A DNA stretch of 64,000 nt from NCBI RefSeq assembly GCF_005155025.1, contig NZ_CP039731.1:62001-126000 (forward strand), in the 5' to 3' direction. Every line of letters starts with the position of its first letter. The stretch's first letter is position 1. Positions 5,401 through 20,774 of the stretch are shown one piece after another. The DNA is from Aquitalea aquatilis (GTDB lineage: Bacteria > Pseudomonadota > Gammaproteobacteria > Burkholderiales > Chromobacteriaceae). Position numbers and translations under genes: made by a program. The notes beneath the pieces are model-generated. The model was not told the origin of the DNA. It was given only the letters and a program-made list of their open reading frames with translations, and searched no databases.

Positions 5401-6198
5401 TTACCACTCCGCCATCCCCGCGCCGCGCCAGTATTCAGCGCTGCTGGCGATGCCGGCGTAATCCGCCAGATCCAGTGGGCTGAAACCACCAATCGCCGTC
5501 GCCTGCAAAAAGGGCTGCAAGTCGGCCGCGCGCAGGCTGTCGCGAATGGCCTGACGTAGCCGCGCCACCGTCGCCGCAGGCGTGGACGCTGCGGTAATCA
5601 GCGGCAGGCCGGGCTGCAGCCGGGTATGGCCGATGCAGGCCAGCTGCTCGAACAGTTGCGGCTGTTGCCGTGCCAGCAGCGCATGGCTGACACAATCGAG
5701 GGCGGCAATATCCGCCTCGCCCGCCGCCAGCATGCCGGCCGAGGCCCGATGCGAACCGGAAAACCTGACCTGGGCAAAAAAGGGCTGCACCCCGGCCAGC
5801 GCCGCCACCTCGGCGCGCAAGGCGTGATAGCCCGACTGCGAATGCCGCTCGTTGCACACGGCGCGCTGTCCACGAAAGTCTGCCAGCGTGCTGCCGGCAT
5901 CGCTCTTGCGCACCAGCAGCGCACTGCTGTAACGCCAGTCGGCGCAGCCGGGCAGTTGATAATGAAAGGCCCCCAGCACCTGTACCTGTGCCTGCAATAG
6001 CGTGGAGACCGGATAGCCACAGCTCTGGCTGAGCAGCATGCCTGGCTCACGCCAGTGCGCCAGATAATCCTCTGGCCAGCTCAGGCTGGCGGGCAGCTGT
6101 GGCTCGCCCAGCTGCTGCAGATGCTGGCGCAGCCACTGCCAGTAGTGTTCGGTCAGCGGCTGCGGCCACGGGTACATGGGCAGGCTGGCCCAGGCCAT
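5401..6198 (-). CDS. PhnD-like periplasmic-binding-protein fold, no signal peptide
   Basis: 265 aa of the phosphate/phosphite/phosphonate (PhnD) binding-protein superfamily. It is recognisable from the overall pattern, including LADFRGQRAVCNERHSQSGY and the later SGSHRASAGMLAAGEADIAALD. The ATG at 6198 lies 4 bp after the stop of the upstream permease. The N-terminus (MAWASLPMYPWPQ) lacks a secretion signal, so it may be cytoplasmic. It is the last gene of an osmoprotectant transporter operon that already has a secreted binding protein. It could be a regulatory ligand sensor or a protein repurposed from uptake. Family assignment is moderate; no substrate is claimed. Confidence 0.65.
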   Translation of the reverse strand: MAWASLPMYPWPQPLTEHYWQWLRQHLQQLGEPQLPASLSWPEDYLAHWREPGMLLSQSCGYPVSTLLQAQVQVLGAFHYQLPGCADWRYSSALLVRKSDAGSTLADFRGQRAVCNERHSQSGYHALRAEVAALAGVQPFFAQVRFSGSHRASAGMLAAGEADIAALDCVSHALLARQQPQLFEQLACIGHTRLQPGLPLITAASTPAATVARLRQAIRDSLRAADLQPFLQATAIGGFSPLDLADYAGIASSAEYWRGAGMAEW

Positions 6199-6202
6199 GG
6201 CC

Positions 6203-6949
6203 TCAGTGCTCCACACCGACATGCGGCGACAGGCGATGGGCCAGCCAGTCGAAGCACTGGTCGGCCACGATGGCCAGCAAGGCCACCAGCAACGCCCCTT
6301 GCAGCACATAGGCGGTATTGAAGCCGCTCAGCCCGACGATGATGGGCAGGCCCAGCGTGCGCGCCCCCACGGTAGAGGCGATGGCCGCCGTGCCGATATT
6401 GATCACCACCGAAGTACGCACCCCGGCCAGCAACACCGGGGCGGCCAGCGGCAGTTCCACCTGCCACAGGATGCGCCAGCGCCCCATGCCCAGGCCACGC
6501 GCCACTTCCAGCACGCTGTCCGGCACCGAGGCCAGCCCGGCCAGCGTGCCTTGCGTCACCGGCAACAGGCCGTACAACACCAGTGCAATCAGCGCCGGCC
6601 ATTCGCCAAAGCCGATCAGTGGCGCGGCAATCGCCAACACCGCCACCGGCGGCAGCGCCTGGCTGATGGCCAGCACGCTGTCCAGCAAGGGGCGGAATTC
6701 ACGCCCGGCCGGCCGGCTGGCCAACAGGCCGGCAGCCACCCCGCCCAGCACGGCAATCAGGCTGGAAGCCAGCACCAGCAGCAGATGCGCCAGCACCAGG
6801 CTGGCAAAGCTGTCCTGGGTATAGAGCGGGCGTTCCACTTCGGGAAACAGCCAAGCAAACAAGCCGGCACTGTGCGGCAACAGATACCACAAGGCCAGCA
6901 ACAGGCCAGTGCTGAGCCACAAGGCGGCAGGCAGGCGGGCCGGCTTCAT
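6203..6949 (-). CDS. Osmoprotectant ABC transporter permease (YehW/OpuC type)
   Basis: 248 aa, about six hydrophobic segments. The permease coupling loop is visible in [20 protein letters not shown]. Related to YehW/OpuCB/OpuCD permeases that import glycine betaine, choline or similar compatible solutes. The gene overlaps the ATPase gene by 4 bp (ATGA type), showing translational coupling. It pairs with the larger permease at 7871-9031 to form the membrane channel. Exact solute is not readable from the sequence. Confidence 0.88.
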
Positions 6950-7878
6950 GCGGCCACCGGCAGCAGGTCGGCAAAATGCAGCACGCCAGCCGGCTGACCC
7001 TGTGCATCGATCACCGGCAGGCTGCTGACCCGGCGTGCGACAAAGGCCGACAGCGCCTCGCGCAGCGTGGCCGAGGCGGCAATCGGCTCGCCGCCGACTT
7101 GCTGCAGCGGCCGCATGCGGCTGGCCACCGTGTCCAGCCCCAGCAGGCGCACGCCGACATCGCTCTGGCCAACGAAGTCGCGCACGAAATCACTGGCTGG
7201 ATGCAGCAGGAAATCCTGGGCACTGCCCTGCTGCACCACCCGTCCCTTGTCCATCAGCACGATACGCTGGCCCAGCAGCAGGGCTTCGTCGATATCGTGC
7301 GTTACCAGCACGATGGTCTTGCCGGACAGCGCCTGGATGCGCAGCAGCTCCTGCTGCAGCGTGCCACGGGTGACCGGGTCCAGCGCGCCGAAAGGCTCGT
7401 CCATCAGCAACACTTCCGGGTCGGCCGCCAAGGCGCGCGCCACACCGACCCGCTGCTGCTGGCCACCCGACAACTGGTGCGGGTAGCGCGCCAAAAACTG
7501 CGCAGCAGGCAGGTGCAACAACTCCAGCAGCTCGACCACCCGCTCGCGGATACGGGCTTTTGGCCATTTGAGCAGGGACGGTACGGCGGCGATGTTCTGT
7601 TCCACCGTCCAATGTGGAAACAGACCCACCGACTGGATGGCATAGCCGATACGGCGGCGCAGCACCTCGGGTGGCTGGCTGCGGATATCCTCGCCGGCCA
7701 GCCGTATGCTGCCGCCATCCGGCTCGATCAGCCGGTTGATCATCTTCAGCGTGGTGGACTTGCCCGAGCCGGAAGTACCGATCAGCACCGCCAGCTCGCC
7801 GGCGGCCACCTGCAAGTCGACATCGGCCACGGCCTGCCAGCCATTGAAAAACTTGTTTACTGCCTTGAGTTCAAGCAT
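6946..7878 (-). CDS. Osmoprotectant ABC transporter ATPase with C-terminal CBS region (YehX type)
   Basis: 310 aa. Walker [10 protein letters not shown] at 34-42, signature [15 protein letters not shown], Walker [13 protein letters not shown] and the switch histidine in LVTHD. The last ~45 residues resemble one CBS repeat ([20 protein letters not shown]), the ionic-strength or nucleotide sensing module of OpuA/OpuC-type ATPases. I chose the second in-frame ATG (7878) because GGGG lies 9 bases upstream; the first, at 7884, has cramped spacing. It overlaps the preceding permease by 8 bp. Confidence 0.9.
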
Positions 7879-9031
7879 GGTCATCAGCCCCTTTCAGCCG
7901 GGAAATCAGCAGGCGAAACGCCACGTCCACCAGCAAGGCCAGCAGCAGCACCGGCAACACCCCCAGCAATACCTGGTCGAGCGCACTGGCCGACAGCCCC
8001 TGGAACATGATGGCGCCAAAGCCACCCGCCCCGATCAGCGCCGCCACCGCCGCCAGCCCCACCGCCTGCACGGTGGTGATGCGCAAGCCGCTGAGAAACA
8101 CCGGCAGCGCCAGCGGGGTTTCCACCTGCAGCATGATCTGCCACGGCGTCATGCCCATGCCGCGAGCCGCCTCGCGCACGGTGGGTGGCACCTGCTGCAG
8201 CCCGGCCAGCGTGCCACGCACCACCGGCAACAGCGCGTACAGGCTGAGCGCCAGCAGCGCCGGTGCCAGCCCCACGCCGGCAATGCCAAGCCCCGGCAAC
8301 TGCCGGCCCAGCCAGGCCAGCGGGCCGATCAACAAGCCGAACAGCGCAATCGACGGAATGGTCTGCAATACATTGAGCACGGGAAACAGCAGCCGGGCAA
8401 AGCGGGCCGAGCGATAGGCCGCCACCCCCAGCGCGCCGCCCAGCAGCAATGCCGGCAGCACGGAAAACAGCACCAGCTGCACGTGACGCAGCAGGGCATC
8501 ATCAAACGCATCCTGGTTATTGTGGTATTCACGCAGCAGGGACAGGCTGTCCAGCCTGCCGCTCAGCAACAGCAATAACAGCGGCAGCTGGGCCAGCGCC
8601 AACAGCAACACGCGGCGCGGCAGACCGGCAGCCAATACTTGCAGCGCCTCGGCCAGCTGCAGCAACAACAACAGCTGCAACAGCCAGAAGCCGCCGCCAA
8701 ACGACACCCGCGCCAGCGCATCCTCGTCACCAGCGCGCAGCATGGCCTCGCTGCCGGCCAGCCACCACAGGGCAGCCCCCAGCCACAGCGCCGCCAGATA
8801 CACCGCCCGCTCCCGCAACACACCCGGCCGCCACCACGGGGCCAGCAACAAGGGCAAGGCCGGCAGCAGCACCAACCAGCGCAGGCCGGAGCCCGCTTGC
8901 AGCCAGGCGAGCAGAGCGATGCCCTGCCCGGTCAACAGGCGGTTGGGCGCATAGGTGAGCAGCGGCAGGCCCAGCGCCGCCGCCAGCGACAGCAACACCA
9001 GCAGCAGGCGCACCCGGCTATACAGACGCAT
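7871..9031 (-). CDS. Osmoprotectant ABC transporter permease with N-terminal extension (YehY type)
   Basis: 386 aa, longer than the partner permease. Roughly 180 residues of Leu-rich hydrophobic segments come first. A standard permease domain follows, with the coupling loop in EAARGMGMTPWQIMLQVETP. The YehY family shows the same extended N-terminus. It is the second gene of the transporter, starting 30 bp after the binding protein. Known relatives form low-affinity betaine uptake systems; the substrate here is inferred only. Confidence 0.87.
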   Translation of the reverse strand: MRLYSRVRLLLVLLSLAAALGLPLLTYAPNRLLTGQGIALLAWLQAGSGLRWLVLLPALPLLLAPWWRPGVLRERAVYLAALWLGAALWWLAGSEAMLRAGDEDALARVSFGGGFWLLQLLLLLQLAEALQVLAAGLPRRVLLLALAQLPLLLLLLSGRLDSLSLLREYHNNQDAFDDALLRHVQLVLFSVLPALLLGGALGVAAYRSARFARLLFPVLNVLQTIPSIALFGLLIGPLAWLGRQLPGLGIAGVGLAPALLALSLYALLPVVRGTLAGLQQVPPTVREAARGMGMTPWQIMLQVETPLALPVFLSGLRITTVQAVGLAAVAALIGAGGFGAIMFQGLSASALDQVLLGVLPVLLLALLVDVAFRLLISRLKGADDHA

Positions 9032-9061
9032 GCGTCACCCCGGCAGGCAGCAGCAACCTGA

Positions 9062-9988
9062 TCACTTGATAAAGCCCTTTTTCTTCAGGTAATCCTGCGC
9101 CACCTTGCGCGCATCGCGGCCTTCGATGGCGATGCTGGCGTTGAGTTTTTGCAGCGTGGGGCCAGTGAGCGACAGGAACACCGGCTTCAGCACCGCGGCG
9201 ATTTTGGGCTGTTTGGCCAGCACCTCGCTGCGGATAATCGGTGCTGGCGCGTATATCGGCTGCACGCCCTTCACATCATCCAGCGTCACCAGCCCCAGCG
9301 CCGCCACCGGGCCATCGGTGCCATAGGCCATGGCGGCATTGACGCCGGAAGTCTGCTCGGCTGCCGCCTTGATGGTGACCGAGGTATCGCCGCCAGCCAG
9401 GGTCAGCAGCTGGTCCTGCTTCAGCTTGAAGCCATAGGCGTTCTGGAAGGCCGGTAGTGCGTCGGCGCGTTCGATGAACTCGGCCGATGCCGCCAGCTTG
9501 AAGCGCCCGCCCTTGTTGATCCAGTTGCCCAGGTCAGTCAGCGTTTTCAGCTTGTTGGCCGCCGCCACATCCTTGCGGATGGCAATGGCCCAGGTATTGT
9601 TGGCCGGCGATGGCGTCAGCCAGCTGATGCGGTTTTTTTCCTGGTCCAGTTTTTTCACCAGCTGATAGCCCGCCTCGGCATTCTTCCAGGCCGGATTGCT
9701 TTCATCGGCAAAGAAAAACGCACCATTGCCGGTGTATTCCGGGTAGATGTCGATTTCGCCGGCGGTAATGGCACCACGCACCACCTTGGTATTGCCCAGC
9801 GACACCTTGCTGACGGTCTTGATGCCATTGGCTTCCAGTACCTGCTGGATGATATTGCCCAGCAAGGCGCCTTCGGTATCGATCTTGGAGCCCACCCGTA
9901 CCGCATCAGCCGCCACGGCCTGCCAGGACAAGGTGCTCAACGCCAGTGCCGCCAACAGCCGACGACGGGAAAATTTTGCTTGGGTCAT
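9062..9988 (-). CDS. Osmoprotectant-binding periplasmic protein (OsmF/YehZ type)
   Basis: 308 aa from the ATG at 9988. The frame is open further upstream, but the signal peptide (MTQAKFSRRRLLAALALSTL, cleavage near AVAADAV) fixes this start. The RRR-containing n-region could be read as Tat-like. The mature protein starts with VRVGSKIDTEGALLGNIIQQ, which matches the OpuAC/OsmF betaine-binding family, and has AGEIDIYPEYTGNGA typical of this fold. It delivers solute to the two permeases downstream. The desaturase lies only 32 bp upstream on the same strand and may share its promoter. Confidence 0.9.
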   Translation of the reverse strand: MTQAKFSRRRLLAALALSTLSWQAVAADAVRVGSKIDTEGALLGNIIQQVLEANGIKTVSKVSLGNTKVVRGAITAGEIDIYPEYTGNGAFFFADESNPAWKNAEAGYQLVKKLDQEKNRISWLTPSPANNTWAIAIRKDVAAANKLKTLTDLGNWINKGGRFKLAASAEFIERADALPAFQNAYGFKLKQDQLLTLAGGDTSVTIKAAAEQTSGVNAAMAYGTDGPVAALGLVTLDDVKGVQPIYAPAPIIRSEVLAKQPKIAAVLKPVFLSLTGPTLQKLNASIAIEGRDARKVAQDYLKKKGFIK

Positions 9989-10020
9989 GGTATTCCTCTT
10001 GATGGATGAACAGCGTGCCT

Positions 10021-10969
10021 TCAGGCAAAGGGGTGCAGCGTATCGATCACCGGCCGGCGACGATGCCGCCACAGCAGCGGCAGATAACCCTGCTCGACAA
10101 AACCGCCGCTGAGTTGCTGGTAATGCTGGCGTTCGGCCAGATAGGCCTGACGCAGACGATACCAGGGCAGGCCCGGATGCAGGTGATGCACCAGATGGTA
10201 ATTCAGGTTGAGAAACAACAGCCGCCACGGCCAGGCGGCTTCGTTCAGCACCGAGCGGGCTGCCGCATCCGGCACCGCCCGGTGCTCGTAAAAGGAACGT
10301 ACCATGGCCAGCGCCAGTGCGGGATAGGCAATGCACAACAGGTAATACCCCGGCGCGATACCGTGCTGGCGCAGCCACAGCAGCAACAGGCCCAGCAAGA
10401 GCAGATGGCTGCTCCACACCAGCAGCTGTTGCCGCTGGCCGCTACGTACCGCAGCGCGCAGCGTGGCCAGCCAGCCCAGGGCCGGCCCCAGCAGCAAGCG
10501 CCCCCGCCGGCAAGGTGGCGTGGTAGTAGGTTTCCGGGTCCACCCCCGGCAGAGTCAGGCTTTCATCATGGTGATGGGCCAGATGGCTGTCACGATAGAC
10601 CGCATAGGGATACCACACTGCCAGCGGCAGCAGGCCGAACCAGGCATTGAGCCAGCCATGGCGGGTGGGATGACCGTGAATCAGCTCGTGCTGCAGCGAC
10701 ATATACCAACTGGTAAAGACAATCAGCAGCGGCGTGGCCAGCCATGGCCCCAGCTGTCGCCACAGCGCCGCCGTGCCGAACCAGCCGCCATAGATGACGG
10801 CGATGAGCAGCCAGGTGGGCAGCTCCAGCCGCGCCAGCCAGGCCCGCGCCCCGGACTGCCCGGCAGGTACAGACGGCGCAGTGTCCCCATCCCGCAGGTC
10901 GGGAATGGCAGAACCTTCGCGATAGAGGCGGCCGGAATGCAAACCGGCATGTTGCAATGAGCAATACAT
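10021..10969 (-). pseudogene. Membrane fatty-acid desaturase interrupted by a single-base frameshift
   Basis: Two overlapping minus-strand frames (10969 to 10442, then 10497 to 10021) together make a full fatty-acid desaturase of about 315 aa. The first holds the histidine boxes HELIHGH and HLAHHHD; the second holds HLVHHLHPG. The frame changes by +1 at a run of five C on the plus strand (10501-10505). With four, the join would read PAGRLLLGPALGW and the protein would be intact. The ATG at 10969 has AAGGAG seven bases upstream. Either a real inactivation or phase switch at a homopolymer, or a sequencing error. The family inserts double bonds in membrane lipid acyl chains using a di-iron centre. 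Confidence 0.85.
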
Positions 10970-11282: not shown

Positions 11283-12221
11283 TCAGCTCTTGGGCAGGCC
11301 GGGCGGATTGGTGCGCGAGGTACTGATGGCCTCGGCCCCCAGGCCCCAGCGGTTGAGCACCTTGGCGTAATTGCCGTTGGCGATCTGGGCATTGATGATC
11401 TGGGTAATCACCGGTGCCAGCCCGGAGCCCTTGCGGGTGGTGACGGCGATATCGGCAGTCAGCGGCCAGCCGCCGGAAAAGGTGCCGGACAGCTTGACCT
11501 TGCCATCGCGGGCAGCCTCAAAGGCATAGAAGGCATTCGGCCCCAGATAGGCATCGGCCCGTCCGGACTGGATGGCCAGCCGCTCCACCGCGTCATCGTC
11601 GTAATACTGCACATCCACCGGCTTGAGGCCGGCCGCCACGTTCTGCTTGTTCCATTGCAGCAGGATCTGTTCCTGGTTGGTGCTGGCACCGACCACCACT
11701 CTCAGCCCGGCCACGTCCTTGGGTTCACGGATTTTCAAGGGGCTGCCGGCCTTGACGTAGATGCCGAGCAAATCCTTGCGATAGGTGGAGAAATCAAATT
11801 TCTCCTTGCGCGCCTCGGTGACCGTGACATTGGAAATCACCGCATCGTATTTGCCGGACTGCAAACCCAGCGGCCAGTCGGCCCAGGCGACATTGACGAT
11901 TTCCAGCTTGCGCCCCAGGCCGTCGGCCACCAGCTGGGCGATATCCGGGTCGGCACCGATCAGGGTTTTGGTGTCGTTGGCAAAGCCGCCCAGCGGCAGG
12001 CGGGCGCTGGCCAGCGCCACCACGAAGGTTTTCTCCTTGGCAAAGCGGGCATCCTTGGGCAGTTGCTGGATGGCCGCCGGCAGCGGTTTGGCACGCGGCC
12101 GCGCCTTTTGCTCGGCGCTCAGGTCAACCTGCACGGCGGCTTGGGCCAGCCACGGGGCCAGCAAGACCAGGCCCAGGCCGGTCAACAGGGTGCGGCGTGT
12201 CCAGTAAGGGGAATGGCTCAT
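11283..12221 (-). CDS. Amino-acid-type ABC transporter substrate-binding protein
   Basis: 312 aa of the SBP_bac_3 family. An export signal is seen near the N-terminus (TRRTLLTGLGLVLLAPWLAQAA). The body includes the ligand-binding pattern VALASARLPLGGF, GADPDIAQLVADGLGRKLEIV and KYDAVISNVTVTEARKEKFDF. It is the last gene of the six-gene minus operon starting at 18302, 56 bp after the fused permease-ATPase. The context suggests a cysteine-derived or sulfur-containing amino acid as ligand (inference). Confidence 0.88.
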   Translation of the reverse strand: MSHSPYWTRRTLLTGLGLVLLAPWLAQAAVQVDLSAEQKARPRAKPLPAAIQQLPKDARFAKEKTFVVALASARLPLGGFANDTKTLIGADPDIAQLVADGLGRKLEIVNVAWADWPLGLQSGKYDAVISNVTVTEARKEKFDFSTYRKDLLGIYVKAGSPLKIREPKDVAGLRVVVGASTNQEQILLQWNKQNVAAGLKPVDVQYYDDDAVERLAIQSGRADAYLGPNAFYAFEAARDGKVKLSGTFSGGWPLTADIAVTTRKGSGLAPVITQIINAQIANGNYAKVLNRWGLGAEAISTSRTNPPGLPKS

Positions 12222-12277
12222 GATGATTTCCTCAGGGTGGTGATGGTGTGTGGGTATAAGGGTTTGCGTTGGCCGGG

Positions 12278-14080
12278 CTACAGCACCCGGGCCAGAAATT
12301 CACGGGTGCGCTGCTGGCGCGGCTGGCGCAGCAGCTGCTCGGGATGGCCGCTCTCCACGATGCGACCCTGCTCCATGAACACCACGGTGTCGGCCACTTC
12401 GCGGGCAAAGCCGATTTCATGGGTGACGATGATCAGCGTGGTGCCGGAACGGGCCAGCTCCTTGATCACGTCCAGCACTTCCTGCACCAGCTCCGGGTCC
12501 AGGGCCGAGGTCGGCTCGTCAAACAACAGCACCTTGGGCCGCAGCGCCAGCGCACGGGCAATGGCCACCCGCTGCTGCTGGCCACCGGACAGCTGGCGCG
12601 GCCAGGCATCGGCCTTGTCGGCCAGACCGACACGCTGCAACAGCTGGCGCGCCTGCTGTTCGGCCTGCGCCCGGCTCAGGCCGCGCACGGCCAGCGGTGC
12701 TTCGATCAGGTTTTGCAAGACGGTGAGATGGGGAAACAGATTGAAGTTCTGGAACACCATGCCCACCTCGATGCGGCGTTGCAGGATGTCCTTTTCCTTC
12801 AGTTCATGCAGGGTGCTGCCCTGCTGGCGATAGCCAATCAGCTCGCCGTCGATGGCGATGAAACCGCTGTCCACGCGCTCCAGATGGTTGATGCTGCGCA
12901 GCAGGGTGGACTTGCCGGAGCCGGAAGGCCCGATGATGACCGTGACGCTGCCGGCGGCAACATCCAGCGATACCTCGTCCAGCACGGTCAGGCTGCCAAA
13001 GCGCTTGCTCACGCCATGGATGGCCACCGCACCACCGGCTGCCGCGGCCAGACTGGCACCATCTGCACTCGCCGCGACGGCAGCAGGGACGGTGGCCGCA
13101 GCCGGCGGCTGGCCACGCCAGCGCTGCCACAGCGACTGCGGCTGCTGACGCAGCGCACCACGGGCATAGCGTCGCTCCACCTGCACCTGCACCACCGACA
13201 GCACGGTGAGGATGATCAGGTACCACACGGTAGCCACCATCAACAGCGGAATCACTTCCAGATTGCGGTGGTAGATTACCTGGATGGTGTAGAACAATTC
13301 CGGCAGCGCCAGGATGTAGACATTGGCCGTGCCCTTGGCCAGACCGATGATGTCGTTGAAAGCGGTAGGCAGGATGGTACGCATGGCTTGCGGCAGCACG
13401 ATGCCGAAAATCTGCCGCCGGCGCGGCAGGCCCAGTGCGGCGGCCGCCTCCAGCTGCCCCTGGTCCACCGACAGGATGCCGCCGCGAATGATTTCCGCCG
13501 AAAACGCCGCCTGGTTCAGGCTCAGGCCCAGCACGGCCGCCGTGAAGGGGCTGATCAGTTCGGTGGTGGCATAGCTGAACCAGTTGATGCCGGTGTAGGG
13601 CACACCGATATTGATGGTTTCGTACAGATAACCCAGGTTGTTGAGGATCAGCAGCAGCACGATCAGCGGTATCGAGCGGAACAGCCAGATATAGCTCCAC
13701 GACAGGCTGGACAGCAGCGGCGAGCGCGATACCCGCGCCAGCGCCAGCACCGTGCCCAGCAGCGAACCCAGCACGGTGCCAACCGCCGTCAGCCACAAGG
13801 TGCGTCCCAGCCCTTCCAGTACCGGCGCAGCCAGAAACCATTCGGCGAACACGCCCCAGCCCCAGCGCGGATTGCTTGCCACCGAGCCGATGATGGCAGC
13901 CAGCAGCAGCAAGGCGACGATGCTGCCGGCCATGCGGGCCGGATAGCGGGCCGGCACGATGCGCAGCCCGGCATAGCGGTTGCTGCCGCTCGCCTCCGCT
14001 GCGGCATGGTCGCTGGCCTGCCGTGGCAGCGGGTGGGGGTGACTGAAGGCGATGTCGCCGACTTCGGTGATTTCACTCAT
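12278..14080 (-). CDS. Fused amino-acid ABC transporter permease-ATPase
   Basis: 600 aa combining two proteins that are usually separate. Residues about 50-300 are a HisM/GlnP-type permease with coupling loop EAAAALGLPRRRQIFGIVLP (211-230). After an Ala-rich linker (about 325-350), residues 352-600 are a GlnQ-type ATPase: Walker A GPSGSGKST at 384-392, signature [15 protein letters not shown], Walker B VLLFDEPTSALDPE, switch His in VTHE. The fused chain would dimerise to give the complete membrane part. The operon and the 312-aa binding protein downstream argue for uptake of a modified amino acid. Confidence 0.92.
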   Translation of the reverse strand: MSEITEVGDIAFSHPHPLPRQASDHAAAEASGSNRYAGLRIVPARYPARMAGSIVALLLLAAIIGSVASNPRWGWGVFAEWFLAAPVLEGLGRTLWLTAVGTVLGSLLGTVLALARVSRSPLLSSLSWSYIWLFRSIPLIVLLLILNNLGYLYETINIGVPYTGINWFSYATTELISPFTAAVLGLSLNQAAFSAEIIRGGILSVDQGQLEAAAALGLPRRRQIFGIVLPQAMRTILPTAFNDIIGLAKGTANVYILALPELFYTIQVIYHRNLEVIPLLMVATVWYLIILTVLSVVQVQVERRYARGALRQQPQSLWQRWRGQPPAAATVPAAVAASADGASLAAAAGGAVAIHGVSKRFGSLTVLDEVSLDVAAGSVTVIIGPSGSGKSTLLRSINHLERVDSGFIAIDGELIGYRQQGSTLHELKEKDILQRRIEVGMVFQNFNLFPHLTVLQNLIEAPLAVRGLSRAQAEQQARQLLQRVGLADKADAWPRQLSGGQQQRVAIARALALRPKVLLFDEPTSALDPELVQEVLDVIKELARSGTTLIIVTHEIGFAREVADTVVFMEQGRIVESGHPEQLLRQPRQQRTREFLARVL

Positions 14081-14138
14081 GATGTCTTATCCTGTGCAAT
14101 AGCCGTGGTGGGTGGTCGGCAAGCCAGTTAAACGGGGT

Positions 14139-14681
14139 TCAGACGGCGATGCCGGCCAGTTGCGTCCAATGCGCGGCGGGTACTGCCGCACTGGCCAGCC
14201 GTGGCAAAGCCTTGGTAAACGGCAAGGTGCGCAGGGCTTCCAGATCGCCATCCTGGTCAAACTGCGCCTGATAGCCATGGCGCAGATACAGCCCCACCGC
14301 CTCCGGCTGACGGCAGCCGGTGGTGAGGTAGATGTGGCGATAGCCCTGACGCTGGCTTTGCGCTTCCAGCTCCTGCAACACCAGCCCGGCCAGCCCCTGC
14401 CGGCGGTACTGGCTGTGGGTCCAGATGCGCTTGAACTCGGCGGTGTGCTCATCCAGCCGCTTGAAGGCCCCGCCGGCAATTGCCTGGCCCTGGCGCAGCA
14501 GCAGCAAGAAGTTGCCATGCGGCGGGGCAAAGGTTGCCGGCGGGTAGCGCCGCATTTCCGCCGCTGCACCGCCCGGATCAAACAGGTCGCCGTAGCGCGC
14601 GTCGTATTCCTGCGTCAGCTCGGCCAGCATCACGCTGGCACGTGGATCGGTGGTGGTGGTGTAAACAAAGTAGTCACGCAT
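14139..14681 (-). CDS. GNAT N-acetyltransferase, candidate S-alkylcysteine N-acetylase
   Basis: 180 aa GNAT fold with the acetyl-CoA loop YRRQGLAGLVLQELEAQ and the later GCRQPEAVGLYLRHGY. The ATG at 14681 overlaps the stop of the M20 gene by 8 bp, implying translational coupling. In Bacillus yxe and ytm operons a GNAT (YxeL, SnaA) acetylates S-(2-succino)cysteine or S-alkylcysteine before oxidation and deacetylation; that role is inferred here purely from neighbours. Confidence 0.85.
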   Translation of the reverse strand: MRDYFVYTTTTDPRASVMLAELTQEYDARYGDLFDPGGAAAEMRRYPPATFAPPHGNFLLLLRQGQAIAGGAFKRLDEHTAEFKRIWTHSQYRRQGLAGLVLQELEAQSQRQGYRHIYLTTGCRQPEAVGLYLRHGYQAQFDQDGDLEALRTLPFTKALPRLASAAVPAAHWTQLAGIAV

Positions 14682-15933
14682 GCTGTGCATCCCGGTCATG
14701 CGGTGCGGCAAGGGCAGGCGCGTAGCCTGGTGCGGACAACACCGGCAGGTAGTGCTCGGCCAGCCCGGCCCAGTAGGCGGCCGCCACGGGCAGGATTTCG
14801 TCATTGAAGTCGTAACGCGGGCTGTGCAGCGAGGCCGTGTCGCCATTGCCGAAAAACAGGAAGCTGCCCGGCCGTGCCTGCAACATGAAGGCAAAATCCT
14901 CGCTGGCGGTGCGCGGGCGAAAGTCTGCCGCCACCCGCTGGCTGCCCAGCGTGGCATGGGCCACCGCGCTGGCGAAGGCGGTTTCGCGGGCGTGGTTGCA
15001 TACCGGTGGGAAACCCAGCCGGTAATCCACCTCGGCCACGGCACCAAAGCTGGCGGCCTGCGCCTGCACCAGTGCCGGCACCCGCTGCTGCAGCAGGCTG
15101 CGCACTTCCGGGCGGAAGGTGCGGGCCGTCAGCTTCAGCTCCACGCTGTCCGGTATCACATTGGAGGCATGGCCGCCGTGGATGCTGCCCACGGTGAGCA
15201 CGCCCATGTCCAGCGGGTCGACATTGCGCGCCACGATGCTTTGCAAGGCGGTGATGACATGGGCGCTCACCAGCACCGGGTCTACCGTGGTATGCGGCTC
15301 GGCCCCATGCCCACCCTTGCCATGCACCGTGATATGCGCCTGATCGACCGAGGCCATGGCCGGGCCTTCGATGCAGCCGATATGGCCGCAACTGACACCG
15401 GGCCAGTTGTGCAGGCCAAACACGGCATCGCAGGGAAAGCGCTCGAACAGCCCCTCCTCTATCATGCGGCGTGCGCCGGAGCCGGTTTCTTCCGCCGGCT
15501 GGAAAATCAGCTGCAAGGTGCCGTCAAACTGCCCTTCCAGCGCCAGAAAGCGGGCAGCGGCCAGCAGGATGGCGGTGTGGCCATCGTGCCCGCAGGCATG
15601 CATCACCCCGGCGTTCTGGCTGGCATAGGGCAAGCCGGTGGCCTCCTGGATGGGCAGCGCATCCATGTCGGCACGCAGCCCCAGCGACTTGCCCCCGGTG
15701 CCGCGCCGCAGCGTGCCCACCACCCCGGTGCCGGCAATGCCGGTGCTCACCTGATAGCCCCATGCGCGCAGCAGGTCCGCCACCTTGCCGGCGGTGCGGA
15801 ATTCGGCAAAAGCCAGTTCCGGGTGCTGGTGCAGCTCGTGACGCAGCGCCACGAACTGCGGGTTGGCCAGGGCGATGGCGGCGTGAATCTGTTCGCTGCG
15901 CGCCGTCAGCTGCGATGACAAGGAACTGGACAT
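14674..15933 (-). CDS. M20 family amidohydrolase / N-deacylase
   Basis: 419 aa of the amidohydrolase branch of peptidase family M20 (hippuricase, IAA-amino-acid hydrolase, YxeP, SndA). Two-metal-site residues are visible: C114 and H116 in HACGHDGH, E148 and E149 in QPAEETGSG, H174 in GLHNWPG, and a late His in SLHSPRYDFNDE. Family members remove N-acyl groups from amino acids. The first base of its ATG is the last base of the preceding monooxygenase stop (TGATG). It likely deacetylates N-acetylcysteine-type products of the pathway (inference). Confidence 0.9.
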   Translation of the reverse strand: MSSSLSSQLTARSEQIHAAIALANPQFVALRHELHQHPELAFAEFRTAGKVADLLRAWGYQVSTGIAGTGVVGTLRRGTGGKSLGLRADMDALPIQEATGLPYASQNAGVMHACGHDGHTAILLAAARFLALEGQFDGTLQLIFQPAEETGSGARRMIEEGLFERFPCDAVFGLHNWPGVSCGHIGCIEGPAMASVDQAHITVHGKGGHGAEPHTTVDPVLVSAHVITALQSIVARNVDPLDMGVLTVGSIHGGHASNVIPDSVELKLTARTFRPEVRSLLQQRVPALVQAQAASFGAVAEVDYRLGFPPVCNHARETAFASAVAHATLGSQRVAADFRPRTASEDFAFMLQARPGSFLFFGNGDTASLHSPRYDFNDEILPVAAAYWAGLAEHYLPVLSAPGYAPALAAPHDRDAQHA

Positions 15934-17270
15934 CAGGCGACCTGCTGTTCGGTCTGGCCTGCCACTGGCTGGTAGCGGCTGGGCTTGCGTGGCAAGCCCA
16001 GGTGATCGCGCAGGGTGTGGCCCTGCAGCTCGCGCTGGAAGCGCCCGCTGGCTTCCAGCACCGGCAGTACATGGGTGATGAAGTCGTCCAGCCCCTCGGC
16101 CACCACCGGGAAGCCCAGGATGAAACCGTCGGCCGCGCCTTCGTCCACCCAGCGGATGATTTCCGCTGCCACTTTTTCGCCACTGCCGACAAAATTGCTG
16201 CGCGGCGTGGCCACTTCCAGCGCGACCTGGCGCAGGGTCAGGCCATGCTCGCGGGCGCGCGCCTTGATCTGGTCGGTGGTGGAACGGAAGCTGTTGCGGC
16301 CAATGTCACCCAGCTCCGGGAAGGCCTCGTCCAGCGGGTACTGGCTAAAGTCGTGGTGGTCGAAGAAGCGGCCCAGATAAGCCAGCGCATCGTCGATGGT
16401 GAGCAGTTGCTGGATGAGGCGGAACTTGGCTTCAGCCTCGGCATCGGTGGCGGCCACGACCGGCGCGATGCCGGGGAAGATCTTCACCGCCTCGGCCGGA
16501 CGGGCATGCAACACGGCGCTGGTTTTCACCTTGCGCAGGAAATCGCGGGTTTCTTCGATGGACGGCGCATGGGTGAACACCGCGTCGGCATACTTGCCGG
16601 CCAGGCCGATGCCGGCATCAGACGAGCCGGCCTGGAAAATCACCGGCTGGCCTTGCGGCGAGCGGCTGATATTCAGCGGCCCGGCCACCTGGAAGAAACG
16701 ACCCTTGTGGTTGAGGGTGTGCAGCTTGTCCTTGGAGAAGAACTGGCCGGTTGCACGGTTACGCGGCAGCGCGTCGTCGTCCCAGCTATCCCACAAGCCC
16801 TGGGTCACTTGCAGGTATTCGTCGGCGATTTCATAGCGCAGCGCATGTTCCGGATGCGGGCGGCTGTAATTGAGCGCCGTACCCTCCAGCGGCGTGGTCA
16901 CCACATTCCAGCCGGCGCGGCCGCCGCTGATCAGGTCGAGCGAGGCAAACTGGCGCGCCACAGTAAACGGGTCGCTGTACGAGGTGGACACGGTGCCGGC
17001 CAGGCCGATCTTGCGGGTCACGCTGGCCAGCGCCGACAGAATGGAGATCGGCTCGAAACGGTTGAGAAAATGCGGAATCGACTGCTCGTTGATGTAGAGG
17101 CCGTCGGCGACAAAGGCAAAGGCGATGCCGTTATGTTCGGCCTTCTGCACGGTATCGATATAGAACTGCAGGTTGACGCTGGCATCTGCCGGGCCACTGG
17201 GGTGTTTCCAGGCGTGCATGTGGCCGCCCGCACCGTGCAGCATGATGCCAAATGTAATGGGTTTGCTCAT
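15933..17270 (-). CDS. NtaA/SnaA/DszA-type flavin-dependent monooxygenase
   Basis: 445 aa, bacterial luciferase fold, class NtaA/SnaA/DszA/YxeK. Recognised by the start MSKPITFGIMLHGAGGH, the central TSYSDPFTVARQFASLDLISGGRAGWNVVT region (in part), and the SSDAGIGLAGKYADAVF segment. It uses reduced FMN delivered by a separate reductase. The ATG at 17270 has GGAG seven bases upstream; the frame could be extended by five codons to a TTG without a ribosome site. In the yxe paradigm this enzyme oxidises the N-acetylated S-substituted cysteine and releases N-acetylcysteine (inference). Confidence 0.9.
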   Translation of the reverse strand: MSKPITFGIMLHGAGGHMHAWKHPSGPADASVNLQFYIDTVQKAEHNGIAFAFVADGLYINEQSIPHFLNRFEPISILSALASVTRKIGLAGTVSTSYSDPFTVARQFASLDLISGGRAGWNVVTTPLEGTALNYSRPHPEHALRYEIADEYLQVTQGLWDSWDDDALPRNRATGQFFSKDKLHTLNHKGRFFQVAGPLNISRSPQGQPVIFQAGSSDAGIGLAGKYADAVFTHAPSIEETRDFLRKVKTSAVLHARPAEAVKIFPGIAPVVAATDAEAEAKFRLIQQLLTIDDALAYLGRFFDHHDFSQYPLDEAFPELGDIGRNSFRSTTDQIKARAREHGLTLRQVALEVATPRSNFVGSGEKVAAEIIRWVDEGAADGFILGFPVVAEGLDDFITHVLPVLEASGRFQRELQGHTLRDHLGLPRKPSRYQPVAGQTEQQVA

Positions 17271-17300
17271 GTTCAACTCCAACAATGTCGGTAAGGAAGA

Positions 17301-18302
17301 TCAGGCCGCCAGCGGCTCGCGCGCCTCGGCCAGCAGGGAGATCGAAGCGCGGCGCAGGGCAAACTGCGCCACCGGGATGTCGATGATGAATTCGCGGATG
17401 CCGTAGCTCTGGTGCAGCGAGTCCAGCTCGGCGCGCACATCGCCGGCGGTACCGGCAATCACGTGCGGCTGTTTTTCTTCCAGCCGGTACTGGCTGACGC
17501 CAGCCTGCCGGGCATATTCCTCGGCGGCTTCGCGACTGGGCACATTGACGCTGCGGCCATCTTCCAGTGTCAGCTTGAACAGCTTCAGCTCGCCCACCAG
17601 GGCCTGCGCCTGTTCGCGGGTTTCCGCCACAAAGGCATACAGCGCCAGGGCCGGCACCTTGCCGGTCCACTGCCGGTATACGGCAATGGATTGCTGGATA
17701 TTGAGCGGGTCGCCATTGAAATGACCGGCATAGGCAAACTCCCAGCCCAGCCGGGCTGCCAGCCGGGCACTGTCCGGGCTGCCGCCCAGCAGGAAGCGGC
17801 CGGCGGCGACCGGGGCTTGCGGCGTGGCCTGTGCGCCGGCCAGCGGGTGGCCGACAGGCTGGCCACCGCTCAGGAAGGCGTCCAGCTCGGCCAGTTGCGT
17901 GGAGAAATCCGGTTTGCGGGCGGCATCGTGATAGTGCTGCAGGGCGAGCGTGCTGTAAGGCAGGCCACCAGGGGCCTTGCCCACGCCCAGATCCACCCGG
18001 CCCGGTGCCAGCGCCGCCAGCAGATTGAAGGTTTCCGCCACCTTGTAGGGGCTGTAGTGCTGCAGCATCACGCCGCCACTGCCCACGCGGATGCGGCTGG
18101 TATGCGCCAGGATGTGGGAGATCAGCACTTCCGGTGCCGAGCTGGCCAGCAGCGGCGTGCTGTGGTGTTCGGCTACCCAGAAGCGGTGGTAGCCCAATTG
18201 TTCGGCCAGTTTGGCCAGCGCCACGGTATGGGCCAGCGCTTCGGCCGCACTAGCGCCGGGGGGAATGGGGCTTTTATCCAGAATCGACAGTGAATAAGAC
18301 AT
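17301..18302 (-). CDS. Luciferase-like monooxygenase (MsnO8/CmoO type)
   Basis: 333 aa from the ATG at 18302, with start MSYSLSILDKSPIP typical of this LLM subclass. It carries AEQLGYHRFWVAEHH and VGSGGVMLQHYSPYKVAETF, and later GKAPGG. It is the first gene of the six-gene operon and a second flavin monooxygenase next to the NtaA-type one, as in the Bacillus ytm operon (YtmO/CmoO with YtnJ/CmoJ). No flavin reductase is encoded in the operon. Confidence 0.88.
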   Translation of the reverse strand: MSYSLSILDKSPIPPGASAAEALAHTVALAKLAEQLGYHRFWVAEHHSTPLLASSAPEVLISHILAHTSRIRVGSGGVMLQHYSPYKVAETFNLLAALAPGRVDLGVGKAPGGLPYSTLALQHYHDAARKPDFSTQLAELDAFLSGGQPVGHPLAGAQATPQAPVAAGRFLLGGSPDSARLAARLGWEFAYAGHFNGDPLNIQQSIAVYRQWTGKVPALALYAFVAETREQAQALVGELKLFKLTLEDGRSVNVPSREAAEEYARQAGVSQYRLEEKQPHVIAGTAGDVRAELDSLHQSYGIREFIIDIPVAQFALRRASISLLAEAREPLAA

Positions 18303-18715
18303 TTGTGTGCACCACTTGATTGACGCCACAAAATCTATTCCCGCCGCCATTTAATATCAATAGCAAAGCCATAAGTTAAAAAGATAAGCTTATTAATCGA
18401 CCCCGTATATTTATCTTAATAAAAAAACCAGCTACTGCATGCTGAAAAAATGCTTATACCGATAATAGCAAGAACCAGCATAAATATTGCTAAGCCCTGA
18501 AACACAAAGCCGCACCATCACCACCAACCCGTCGCATTTATTACCCAGACAATATCCTTCACTCGCTGGCAATTACACAGCAGCTGATTAACTAATAATA
18601 TTTTCTTGATTAATAAAACGGGAACATTGCGGAACAATAGCCATCAGCCACCGACAACGCATCCTGCACCGGCGGCCTGTGATGTTCTCTTTTCCAACTT
18701 AATCGCGACTTGATC
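18303..18715. other. AT-rich divergent promoter region
   Basis: 413 bp between the divergent monooxygenase operon and the porin, markedly AT-rich. It contains the inverted repeat AAGATAA (18381-18387) / TTATCTT (18411-18417) and the 10-bp palindrome ATAAGCTTAT (18384-18393). Promoters for both directions must lie here, but I cannot name the regulators. No gene is seen. Confidence 0.55.
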
Positions 18716-19840
18716 ATGAAAATAAAACTGCTCGCCCTGACCATGGCCGCACTGCCGCTGCTGGCCCATGCCGATGATGGCGTCACCGTATACGGCAAAA
18801 TCGCTGGCAACCTGTCCAATGTGAAAAGCTATTCAGCCACCACCAATAACGGCCAGCCCTTCAGCAGCTGGCGGGTAGATGACAACACCTCGCGCATCGG
18901 TTTCAAGGGCAGCGAGAATCTGGGCAATGGCGTCACCGCCATCTGGCAAGTGGAAAACCGCATTCACGTCGATGGCAGCGGTACGGATACCTTCGCCAGC
19001 CGCGACTCCTTCGTCGGCCTGCAAAGCGAGCTGGGCAAGATTCGCCTGGGTCGCCTGTCCGACTACGCCAACCTGGACATGGAGTACATCGATCCGGGCT
19101 CCTACAGCAGCGTGGCCGGCCAGATTTACTCCACCCGGCTGGACGGACGCATCAATAACGCCATCCGCTACGACAGCCCCAATCTGGCCGGTTTCAGCTT
19201 TACCACCACCTGGGGTGCCGATGAAAAACGCGCCAGCGACAGCAGCGGCAACCCGACCAACAACCAGGTATTCAACCTGGGCCTGAGCTACGAGCAGGCC
19301 GGTTACTTCGCCAAGTTCAGCTATGAGAACAAGGGTGATGCCAAGCAGGTGAACAGCGCGGCGCAGACCGGTGCCGTGAAAAACTGGTGGCGGGTGGAAG
19401 CTGGCTATATCAGCGACCCCATTTATCTGGCGCTGGGCTTCCAGACCGTGAATGGCTACCTGGGGGTGAGCAGCGGCAAGTTCGTCGACAGCCCGGGGGT
19501 GGTTTACAACGTCAATGTGCTGAATGCCCGTCTGGCGGCCAGCGGCCTGAGCGCCAGCGCGGCGGCCTCCAGCCAGCAAGTGAAGGCGCGTGAAGCGGTG
19601 CTCACCTTCGGCTACAACATCGGCCCGTGGCTGCCCTATGTCTCGCTGACCAAGGGCTATGACCTGAGCGTGGGCGGCAGTGACATCGACAAGACCGGCT
19701 ACACCCAGTATGTGGTCGGCACCACCTATGCCCTGTCCAAGCAGACCAAGGCCTATGCCTCGTATGGCCGTGCCAACTGGGGCGGCAACGGTGTGGCCAG
19801 TGAAAGCGCCATCAGCCTGAGCCTAGCCAAGTTCTTCTAA
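18716..19840 (+). CDS. Outer-membrane general porin (Neisseria type)
   Basis: 374 aa from the ATG at 18716; an in-frame TTG six bases earlier is less likely. Signal peptide MKIKLLALTMAALPLLAHA, then the mature start DDGVTVYGKIAG typical of betaproteobacterial 16-strand porins. Marker segments SRIGFKGSENLGNG and GRLSDYANL are present, and the C-terminus ends in FF, the outer-membrane targeting signature. It forms a diffusion channel as a trimer. A GC hairpin (19849-19868) follows. Confidence 0.92.
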   Translation: MKIKLLALTMAALPLLAHADDGVTVYGKIAGNLSNVKSYSATTNNGQPFSSWRVDDNTSRIGFKGSENLGNGVTAIWQVENRIHVDGSGTDTFASRDSFVGLQSELGKIRLGRLSDYANLDMEYIDPGSYSSVAGQIYSTRLDGRINNAIRYDSPNLAGFSFTTTWGADEKRASDSSGNPTNNQVFNLGLSYEQAGYFAKFSYENKGDAKQVNSAAQTGAVKNWWRVEAGYISDPIYLALGFQTVNGYLGVSSGKFVDSPGVVYNVNVLNARLAASGLSASAAASSQQVKAREAVLTFGYNIGPWLPYVSLTKGYDLSVGGSDIDKTGYTQYVVGTTYALSKQTKAYASYGRANWGGNGVASESAISLSLAKFF

Positions 19841-19848
19841 GCAGCACG

Positions 19849-19868
19849 GCCCCGCCGCCTGGCGGGGC
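19849..19868 (+). terminator. GC hairpin after the porin gene
   Basis: Stem GCCCCGCC/GGCGGGGC class hairpin with a 4-base loop directly after the porin stop. There is no U tract, so it may only attenuate read-through into the DUF3088 gene. Confidence 0.4.
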
Positions 19869-19895
19869 TATCCAACCGCCACCGAAAGCCATTGC

Positions 19896-20240
19896 ATGAG
19901 CCGCGACCTGTTATTGCTGCTGGAACCCGGTTTTACCCGCCCGGACCACCCTGCCGAACAACGCTTTGTCTGCCCGCACAGCACGCTGCTGGAAGGCCTG
20001 CTGGCCACCCAGCCGGCGCTGGCCAGCCGCATCGAGGTGCGCCGTCTGCCCTTTCCCCGTCCACGCCAGGCGGTGATCGAGCTGGTGGGCGAAGACAATC
20101 AGGGCCTGCCACTGCTGCTACTGGCCGCCGACAGCCCGGTTCCGCCGCAGGCGGCACAGCATCAGGGCCGCTATTTCCTGCAGGACGCCCGGCAGATCGC
20201 CGCCTATCTGGCCGAGCAGCATGCGGCCTATCATCTCTGA
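19896..20240 (+). CDS. DUF3088-family protein
   Basis: 114 aa, start MSRDLLLLLEPGFTRPDHP, with the conserved FVCPHSTLLEGLL segment containing the single Cys of the family. Soluble, no signal peptide. Function unknown. It precedes a VOC-domain gene by 27 bp and probably shares its transcript. The family call is from pattern recognition. Confidence 0.75.
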   Translation: MSRDLLLLLEPGFTRPDHPAEQRFVCPHSTLLEGLLATQPALASRIEVRRLPFPRPRQAVIELVGEDNQGLPLLLLAADSPVPPQAAQHQGRYFLQDARQIAAYLAEQHAAYHL

Positions 20241-20267
20241 ACCGTTCACCCTTAGCGAAAGCGCATC

Positions 20268-20774
20268 ATGGGAATCAAACGCCTGAACCACGCCGTGCTC
20301 TATGTCAGTGATGTGCCGCGCAGCACACGCTTTTACCAGGATGTTCTGGGTTTCCGTCCCAAGCCGGGCAGCCAGCCGGACCGGGCGGTGTTTACCCAGG
20401 CCGCCGATTCTGACAACGATCATGATCTGGCACTGTTTGCCCGCAATCTGGGGCAGCAGCGCGCCGGGGTATTCAGCCCGCGCGGCGAGGTGCCGGCCGC
20501 CAGCGAGCCGCCAGCCGGGCTGTATCACCTGGCCTGGGAAGTCGACAGCCTGGCCGAGCTCAAGCGCATCCGCGACCAGTTGCAGGCACTGGGCCGCCTG
20601 GGGCTGGAAGAGGATCACGGCGTGCACAAGAGCGTGTACGGCCATGACCCGGATGGCCTGCTGTTTGAAGTCACCTGGTTTGTCCCGCAGGAGGCCTTGC
20701 AGGATGCAGACCGCCAGAGCCGCAGCGACCCCTTGCTGTGGGAGCGCGAACTGGCGCGTTTCGCCAAGCTGTAA
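20268..20774 (+). CDS. VOC-family (glyoxalase/dioxygenase fold) protein
   Basis: 168 aa with the vicinal-oxygen-chelate pattern: LNHAVLYVSDVPRSTRFYQDVLGF at the start and the C-terminal half with YGHDPDGLLFEVTW. Candidate metal ligands are H8, H-containing YHLAWEVD and E in LLFEVTW, as in catechol dioxygenases. Substrate not predictable. A strong hairpin terminator follows. Confidence 0.85.
   Translation: MGIKRLNHAVLYVSDVPRSTRFYQDVLGFRPKPGSQPDRAVFTQAADSDNDHDLALFARNLGQQRAGVFSPRGEVPAASEPPAGLYHLAWEVDSLAELKRIRDQLQALGRLGLEEDHGVHKSVYGHDPDGLLFEVTWFVPQEALQDADRQSRSDPLLWERELARFAKL

Follow-up and report, generated by a model that had tools for sequence, protein, structure and literature searches.

The stretch of DNA analysed in this study (hereafter called the window) comprises 64,000 nucleotides of the Aquitalea aquatilis genome and is part of one 4.36 Mb contig (C1). 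Located on its minus strand, at positions 18302-11283, is an operon of six genes whose products very probably constitute a Gram-negative counterpart of the Bacillus subtilis ytm (cmo) system for S-alkylcysteine salvage. A neighbouring, divergently transcribed gene encodes a DUF3088 protein that may take part in the same pathway.

Gene content of the operon

Each of the six genes begins with ATG and is intact, with zero internal stop codons, and the intergenic gaps are 30, -1, -8, 58 and 56 bases. The original prediction for this locus, made from the sequence alone, had described six closely packed minus-strand genes for two flavin monooxygenases, an M20 enzyme, a GNAT enzyme and an amino-acid uptake system of the ATP-binding cassette (ABC) type. 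The gene starts, gaps and intact frames bear out this arrangement, and all of the named protein families were matched. In order of transcription, the genes are as follows.

17301..18302, minus strand: MsnO8-family luciferase-like monooxygenase, proposed CmoO (S-oxygenation of the N-acetyl thioether); TIGR03558, 349.7 bits, cut-off 166.95
15933..17270, minus strand: NtaA/DmoA-family monooxygenase, CmoJ orthologue (sulfoxide C-S cleavage); TIGR03860, 496.2 bits, cut-off 279.7
14674..15933, minus strand: M20 amidohydrolase, proposed N-acetylcysteine deacetylase; TIGR01891, 365.1 bits, cut-off 153.75; HACGHD motif
14139..14681, minus strand: GNAT N-acetyltransferase, proposed S-alkylcysteine N-acetylase; PF00583, 51.7 bits
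12278..14080, minus strand: fused ABC permease-ATPase of the polar amino acid type, 600 residues; PF00528 and PF00005 in one frame
11283..12221, minus strand: family-3 solute-binding protein; PF00497, 81.1 bits

The ATPase domain of the fused transporter carries the Walker A, LSGGQ and Walker B motifs. The NCBIfam model nearest to the solute-binding protein is that of a cystine-binding protein, at 82.5 bits and under its cut-off of 312. As had been claimed, neither a flavin reductase nor a riboflavin kinase (RibR) is encoded among the six genes. Family scans of the same genes also revealed no lyase, and there is no redoxin among them of the kind represented by YtnI (CmoI). An Rfam scan of the window gave zero matches at gathering thresholds.

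The NtaA/DmoA-family monooxygenase is an orthologue of B. subtilis YtnJ, the protein also named CmoJ. The comparison with CmoJ suggested in the original prediction yielded 55% identity to YtnJ over 423 residues (the YtnJ stretch being that of the structure-search alignment). Among solved structures, the enzyme scores approximately 528 bits against YtnJ (PDB 1yw1, 1tvl and 6ask), and the sole entry ranked above these is 3sdo, a 'nitrilotriacetate monooxygenase' (619 bits); the next relative below them is 7e36 (281.8 bits), and DszA scores 242 bits. The M20 enzyme has its highest-scoring solved structure in YxeP (1ysj, 273.5 bits), which is a family-level match to the deacetylase role only. For the MsnO8-type protein, family membership and gene position suggest the CmoO assignment given above.

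Conservation and distribution of the cluster

A scan with the CmoJ protein produced at least 596 matching stretches. A relative is encoded by 472 of them, from which the 80 best named loci were retained. Since these loci represent the closest relatives, often several from one genus, the counts reported below are not independent. Genes were counted by tblastn under fixed limits, each gene being represented by one query or two, and therefore the counts for accessory genes are minima. Gene clustering was weighted by codon-position G+C; taking the longest open reading frames (ORFs) instead yields numerous shadow ORFs in DNA this rich in G+C.

The five-gene core formed by the MsnO8-type, CmoJ, GNAT, fused transporter and binding protein genes is found together in 74 of the 80 loci, and in 52 of them together with the M20 gene. 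Given that this core stays together among the closest loci, the cluster reflects more than chance. The MsnO8-type gene is located directly upstream of the CmoJ gene in 78 loci, and the GNAT gene (79), the fused permease-ATPase gene (76) and the binding protein gene (76, with two copies in 56) are similarly constant. The six loci that lack the complete core are L024, L027 and L028 (short contigs), L061 (transporter in two frames), L037 (rearranged) and L065 (no MsnO8-type gene).

By name, the organisms represented are Aquitalea, which includes the nearest named relatives of the window (CmoJ protein, 94%), Comamonadaceae, Burkholderia, Paraburkholderia, Stenotrophomonas, Rhizobiaceae, Rhodobacteraceae and others. 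Going by these names, the carriers span the alpha-, beta- and gammaproteobacteria, in which the cluster is common and widespread. Its presence in the window's own family is patchy, because CmoJ is found in only 10 of 61 genomes. These are eight of the ten genomes of the same genus and two from one other genus; one of the two same-genus genomes without CmoJ (G404) is only 61% complete. Plasmids also carry the genes: CmoJ matches at E 1e-120 or better occur in 254 records, with an identity below 60% in 101, and a Comamonas plasmid has an annotated copy of the cluster with a flavin mononucleotide (FMN) reductase gene upstream. One locus, L071, is labelled Bacillus subtilis SK7B5 and holds a Stenotrophomonas-type cluster with a TonB receptor, DUF3088 and a CmoJ protein 72% identical to that of the window. 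This assembly is probably contaminated or mislabelled.

The fused transporter had been highlighted in the original prediction. The fusion is real, with one frame of 600 residues, but it is not unusual, being the rule among the closest relatives and also annotated in one plasmid record, and we have rejected it as a novelty. Unlike this form, the permease and ATPase parts are in different frames in L152 and L154, where CmoJ is more distant.

Some components vary among the 80 loci. An M20 gene is present in 56 and a deacylase of the AstE/AspA type in 11, such that 67 have either enzyme. The loci with an AstE/AspA-fold deacylase and no M20 gene in the stretch are of the Burkholderia type (L029, L030, L035, L036, L042, L048, L049, L051, L055, L058 and L065), and the enzyme is possibly a non-orthologous N-acetylcysteine deacetylase. 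The L058 protein is DoeB-like (234.8 bits, under the NCBIfam cut-off of 402.7). An FMN reductase gene is near the cluster in at least 15 loci. A third luciferase-like monooxygenase gene is near it in 48, usually behind the second binding protein gene, and is absent from the Aquitalea loci L008 and L009; this protein (for example, L079:17010-18071) scores under the cut-off of every NCBIfam subfamily listed.

Assignment of the pathway

The B. subtilis ytm operon is given as ytmIJKLMNO-ytnIJ-ribR-ytnLM in the literature (PMC2743287, PMC2885750), with ytmI encoding an N-acetyltransferase, ytmO and ytnJ monooxygenases, ytnI a redoxin, ytnL an aminohydrolase and ytnM a transporter (PMC3862929). The Aquitalea operon shares with this system an acetyltransferase, an amino-acid ABC uptake system, two luciferase-like monooxygenases including the CmoJ orthologue, and an M20 deacetylase. 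It differs in gene order, in the fusion of permease and ATPase (the B. subtilis uptake genes being tcyJKLMN), and in having no ribR, ytnM or redoxin gene, with a DUF3088 gene in a divergent unit instead. The occurrence of both monooxygenase classes in one operon had been presented as a departure from Bacillus. This claim fails, because ytmO (CmoO) and ytnJ (CmoJ) already share one B. subtilis operon according to the same sources, and thus the pairing is not novel.

Published evidence indicates that, in B. subtilis, CmoO forms a sulfoxide and CmoJ cleaves the N-acetyl-S-alkylcysteine sulfoxide to an aldehyde and a sulfenic acid, within a step order of acetylation, oxidation, cleavage, reduction and deacetylation (PMC10863075). 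N-acetylcysteine is reported to be deacetylated in this organism by ScmP (YxeP), by the M20 enzyme YtnL and by YhaA (PMC12757645). With a CmoJ orthologue encoded beside MsnO8-type, GNAT, M20 and amino-acid uptake proteins, the S-alkylcysteine portion of the original prediction is well supported, and we consider it very likely that these genes form a cmo (ytm-type) cluster for S-alkylcysteine salvage in a Gram-negative organism.

By analogy, the binding protein and fused permease-ATPase would import an S-substituted cysteine, possibly after its passage through a porin encoded by the divergent unit, and the GNAT enzyme would add an N-acetyl group. The MsnO8-type monooxygenase, in the CmoO role, would then produce the sulfoxide, and the CmoJ orthologue would break the C-S bond to give an aldehyde and N-acetylcysteine sulfenic acid. 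Conversion of the latter to N-acetylcysteine may be aided by the neighbouring DUF3088 protein and glutathione, after which the M20 enzyme would release cysteine by deacetylation. Reduced flavin may be supplied from elsewhere in the genome, for example by the FMN reductase of a sulfonate (ssu-type) cluster; the same genome encodes an FMN_red protein (PF03358) clustered with an SsuD-type monooxygenase at approximately C1:3,130,900. Within this scheme, the genes present, the orthology of CmoJ, the steady gene order and the proximity of DUF3088 are observed, and the substrates, the CmoO role, the part played by DUF3088, the origin of the flavin and the function of the porin are inferred.

Two observations weigh against this pathway as drawn. 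MsnO8 is a broad family whose TIGR03558 model also matches 10 of 14 control genomes, B. subtilis included, and is too broad to decide CmoO orthology, such that equivalence with CmoO, and likewise that of the acetyltransferase with YtmI, is suggested at the level of family. In addition, within the limits set on stretch and identity, 13 of the 80 loci have neither an M20 gene nor one for a deacylase of the AstE/AspA type, and therefore the deacetylase may lie elsewhere; some of these contigs are short.

The original prediction also included S-(2-succino)cysteine as a substrate, which would be processed in the manner of the B. subtilis yxe/scm pathway by acetylation, one-step oxygenolytic cleavage and deacetylation. 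The Aquitalea operon does share this acetylate-cleave-deacetylate logic, as well as the same general families (acetyltransferase, monooxygenase, deacetylase and ABC uptake; PMC9706529), and YxeP is the best solved relative of its M20 enzyme. However, the yxe route, known also in a lyase variant, is described in that paper as using one monooxygenase or a lyase, and the six genes belong to other families. The NtaA/DmoA enzyme is orthologous to YtnJ (the comparison was made with YtnJ, not YxeK), there is an extra MsnO8-type monooxygenase that is kept in 78 of the 80 loci and is absent from the yxe components named in the same source, and no lyase is present. We therefore regard this part of the prediction as unsupported and the substrate as very improbable.

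An alternative for the first oxidation step is that the true substrates are plant cysteine sulfoxides such as methiin and alliin, in which case CmoJ would act directly after acetylation and the MsnO8-type enzyme would oxidise something else. B. subtilis CmoJ does use an N-acetyl sulfoxide (PMC10863075), and several carriers of the cluster, such as Rhizobium, are plant-associated by name or source. Against this, the retention of the MsnO8-type gene directly upstream of the CmoJ gene fits a pathway in which sulfoxidation is needed, and we judge the plant sulfoxide alternative to be unlikely.

For S-alkylcysteine salvage as outlined above, nothing on a Gram-negative version of the cluster was found in the open-access literature searched. 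In the available parts of two papers, S-methylcysteine serves only as an analytical standard in work on Ruegeria (PMC7157515), and CmoO is merely listed in a figure (PMC11354265). With this assignment, the Bacillus pathway would apply to much of the Proteobacteria, where the order of the genes is steady.

A DUF3088 protein encoded beside the operon

Beside the operon, at 18716-20774, are three divergently oriented genes that the original prediction overlooked. Together with the intervening region, their features are as follows.

18303..18715, no strand assigned: A+T-rich divergent control region between operon and porin gene; G+C 0.41 (18303-18712) versus 0.653 in the operon
18716..19840, plus strand: Gram-negative porin, possible outer-membrane entry route; PF13609, 122 bits; start ATG picked by eye
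19896..20240, plus strand: DUF3088 protein, 114 residues, proposed monothiol redoxin (C26 in CPHS); PF11287, 125.7 bits, gathering cut-off 26.4
20268..20774, plus strand: VOC/glyoxalase-family protein; PF00903, 52.7 bits

The cysteine at position 26 of the DUF3088 protein is invariant in all 12 aligned sequences, and a wider alignment (duplicates included) retains this first cysteine in 44 of its 45 rows, the exception being a fragment without that region. The fourth position of the resulting CxxC/S/G motif is variable; it is S or G in rows linked to cmo clusters, except for C in L143 and L027. An AlphaFold2 model built from the 12 sequences (predicted local distance difference test score 86.3, predicted template modelling score 0.82) has a thioredoxin-like order of elements, with helix 1 (residues 27-38) starting straight after C26. 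The top five Foldseek matches to this model are Omega-class glutathione S-transferases (GSTs), of which the best is 6sr8 (E 8.7e-3, probability 1.00, 15% identity), and later matches include KaiB, thioredoxins and further Omega GSTs; none of the 324 matches has an E value of 0.001 or below. The predicted fold thus appears to be glutaredoxin/Omega-GST-like. As in Omega-class GSTs and glutaredoxin 2, the cysteine would be at the start of helix 1 of a thioredoxin-like fold, whereas, unlike the Omega-class enzymes, DUF3088 consists of one small domain and lacks the helical GST domain.

Previous descriptions of the family agree with this model in general terms. A 2010 survey assigned DUF3088 to the thioredoxin-like clan, the top hit being glutaredoxin 2, and gave no function (PMC3091736), and a 2026 database paper lists the family under the broad predicted pathways of electron transport, glutathione metabolism and Fe-S biogenesis (PMC12828279). 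Apart from these two papers, no role for DUF3088 was found in the open-access literature searched, and PHROGs gave no match.

The sulfenic acid released by CmoJ must be reduced (PMC10863075), and no reductant is named in the available text of that source. Given that the CmoJ product needs reduction, and that the Bacillus operon has a redoxin gene, we propose that DUF3088 reduces the sulfenic acid, probably with glutathione. In its full form, this proposal holds that DUF3088 is an often monothiol, glutaredoxin-/Omega-GST-like reductase dedicated to flavin-dependent C-S cleavage, that it replaces YtnI in part of the Gram-negative clusters and also serves other clusters of the NtaA/DmoA type, and that other lineages use other redox proteins. 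We advance it tentatively, as a credible idea that we would hesitate to call probable. It does offer a testable job for a protein family of undescribed function. If true, many genes beside flavin monooxygenases would gain a likely function, and the question would arise of whether flavin-dependent C-S cleavage needs its own reductant.

Co-location of DUF3088 with flavin monooxygenases

A DUF3088 gene is near the cluster in 15 of the 80 loci. In L027 and nine loci of the Stenotrophomonas type, it is the gene immediately upstream of the MsnO8-type gene; the others are L008, L009, L026, L030 and L033. We also examined a sample of 397 Pseudomonadota genomes, which overlaps in part with the 80-locus set (for example, at L142 and L030), counting CmoJ-type matches at E 1e-120 or better. 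DUF3088 is present in 31 of these genomes, a CmoJ-type match in 30 and both in 9 (Fisher p 1.5e-4), and the two genes are within 5 kb of each other in eight of the nine (approximately 595 kb apart in G270). All nine co-occurrences fall among the 14 genomes with a CmoJ match of 65% identity or more (p 5e-8, not corrected for kinship and with the 65% limit chosen after seeing the list). When counted by genus, DUF3088 occurs in seven of the nine genera with close CmoJ (p 1.6e-7); in g128, one of the seven, the two genes come from different genomes. Among the 61 genomes of the window's family, DUF3088 is found in 9, in each case less than 3 kb from a CmoJ gene, and in none of the 51 that lack CmoJ (p 6e-10), an association that amounts to approximately two independent cases because the eight Aquitalea genomes are close kin. 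One CmoJ genome in the family (G455) lacks DUF3088.

The association is not confined to CmoJ. At least one TIGR03860 monooxygenase gene (E 1e-60 or better) is present in 19 of the 31 DUF3088 genomes, and in 11 of the 31, spread over eight genera, the two are within 5 kb of each other, where 0.14 such cases are expected by random placement; at most four arose in 200,000 simulated runs. Three of these 11 (G035, G107 and G206) do not involve CmoJ clusters. In such non-CmoJ clusters, DUF3088 is 80 bases behind the TIGR03860 gene in L127, 277 bases away in L131 and 4.2 kb away in L130. Among eight plasmid contexts of DUF3088 taken from 43 records, oxidoreductases of the luciferase-like monooxygenase (LLM) class are close by in four and not in the other four. 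As near the Aquitalea operon, LLM-class oxidoreductases adjoin DUF3088 in plasmid clusters of rhizobia, Variovorax and Burkholderia, but these clusters differ in having acyl-CoA-dehydrogenase-family (SfnB-like) proteins, and no GNAT or M20 protein is annotated in the stretches seen. A candidate MetC-DUF3088 fusion in L132 was rejected, since its 543-codon frame is not MetC-like in that frame and DUF3088 starts from an ATG of its own, the MetC-like gene in front of it being a separate one.

Several findings count against a dedicated role for DUF3088. It is absent from 5 of the 14 genomes with close CmoJ and from all 16 with more distant CmoJ (49-62%), and it is therefore not indispensable to the pathway in general. 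Among the 31 genomes that do have it, 12 lack a TIGR03860 gene at E 1e-60, and in 20 there is no such gene within 5 kb of it on the same contig, many of these loci having neighbours with no evident tie to sulfur (by eye). Finally, 57 of the 80 loci have neither DUF3088 nor the DsbA-type protein described below.

These findings can also be accommodated if DUF3088 is a bystander or general thiol protein that is tied in by shared sulfur-starvation control and is not a catalyst of the pathway. In addition to the 20 genomes without a TIGR03860 gene within 5 kb, this explanation draws on the 21 of 30 CmoJ-type genomes that lack DUF3088 and on the four plasmid contexts without a luciferase-like monooxygenase. 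It is less readily reconciled with 11 co-locations where 0.14 are expected, with the short distances in the non-CmoJ clusters L127 and L131, with two plasmids on which DUF3088 is directly behind annotated LLM-class oxidoreductases, or with its position directly upstream of the MsnO8-type gene in the Stenotrophomonas-type loci and L027. We take the bystander explanation seriously, while stopping short of calling it probable.

Other redox proteins in the same position

If DUF3088 is a reductase for C-S cleavage, other lineages might use other proteins for the same purpose. A DsbA-type protein is encoded in 8 of the 80 loci, which are of the Rhizobium type (PF01323 on the L078 copy), and none of these has DUF3088 in the same locus. 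Outside cmo clusters, L124 has a 34% DsbA-type match 3 kb from DUF3088. In one alphaproteobacterium, an OsmC-like gene is located between the MsnO8-type gene and CmoJ (L062:9435-9995), and a CMD-family (PF02627) protein is encoded slightly downstream of a Chelatococcus cluster (L020:18089-18688); both may be redox proteins. Ten frames were scanned out of 139 flanking or inserted frames in 23 loci, and no redox family was matched by the other eight (including L038:7743-8315). This pattern, which was seen after the fact, fits the filling of one slot by different cysteine-redox proteins across lineages.

Control region and additional neighbours

Within the divergent control region, a sigma-70-like match at 18360-18332 (minus strand) lies in a stretch that is conserved in an alignment with two other Aquitalea loci. 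A promoter scan of the stretch gave three matches versus 2.1 expected, which is not significant, and thus the sigma-70-like match is weak on its own. In Bacillus, the ytm operon is controlled by sulfur supply via CymR/YtlI. Just upstream of an Agrobacterium cluster is a gene for an Rrf2-family regulator (L045:8215-8697; PF02082), the family to which CymR belongs as well.

The porin gene occupies the same place in L008 and L009. DUF3088 is likewise next to a porin gene on a B. pyrrocinia plasmid (L174), where the two are divergent; in Aquitalea it follows the porin gene. The VOC protein, which is linked to the cluster within the window's family, also adjoins it in L008 and L009, and a protein with a similar start is encoded in the same stretch of L171 and L172 (by eye).

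On the other side of the operon, the window carries osmoprotectant-type ABC genes (5401-9991, minus strand), whose OpuAC binding domain and permease were identified by Pfam and the rest by eye; in L171, the cluster is flanked by genes whose starts are similar to theirs. Between these genes and the operon is a desaturase-like gene (by eye) in two overlapping frames (10021-10969, minus strand), which is perhaps the result of a frameshift. L171, by contrast, has one frame of 318 residues (12894-13850) that starts similarly.

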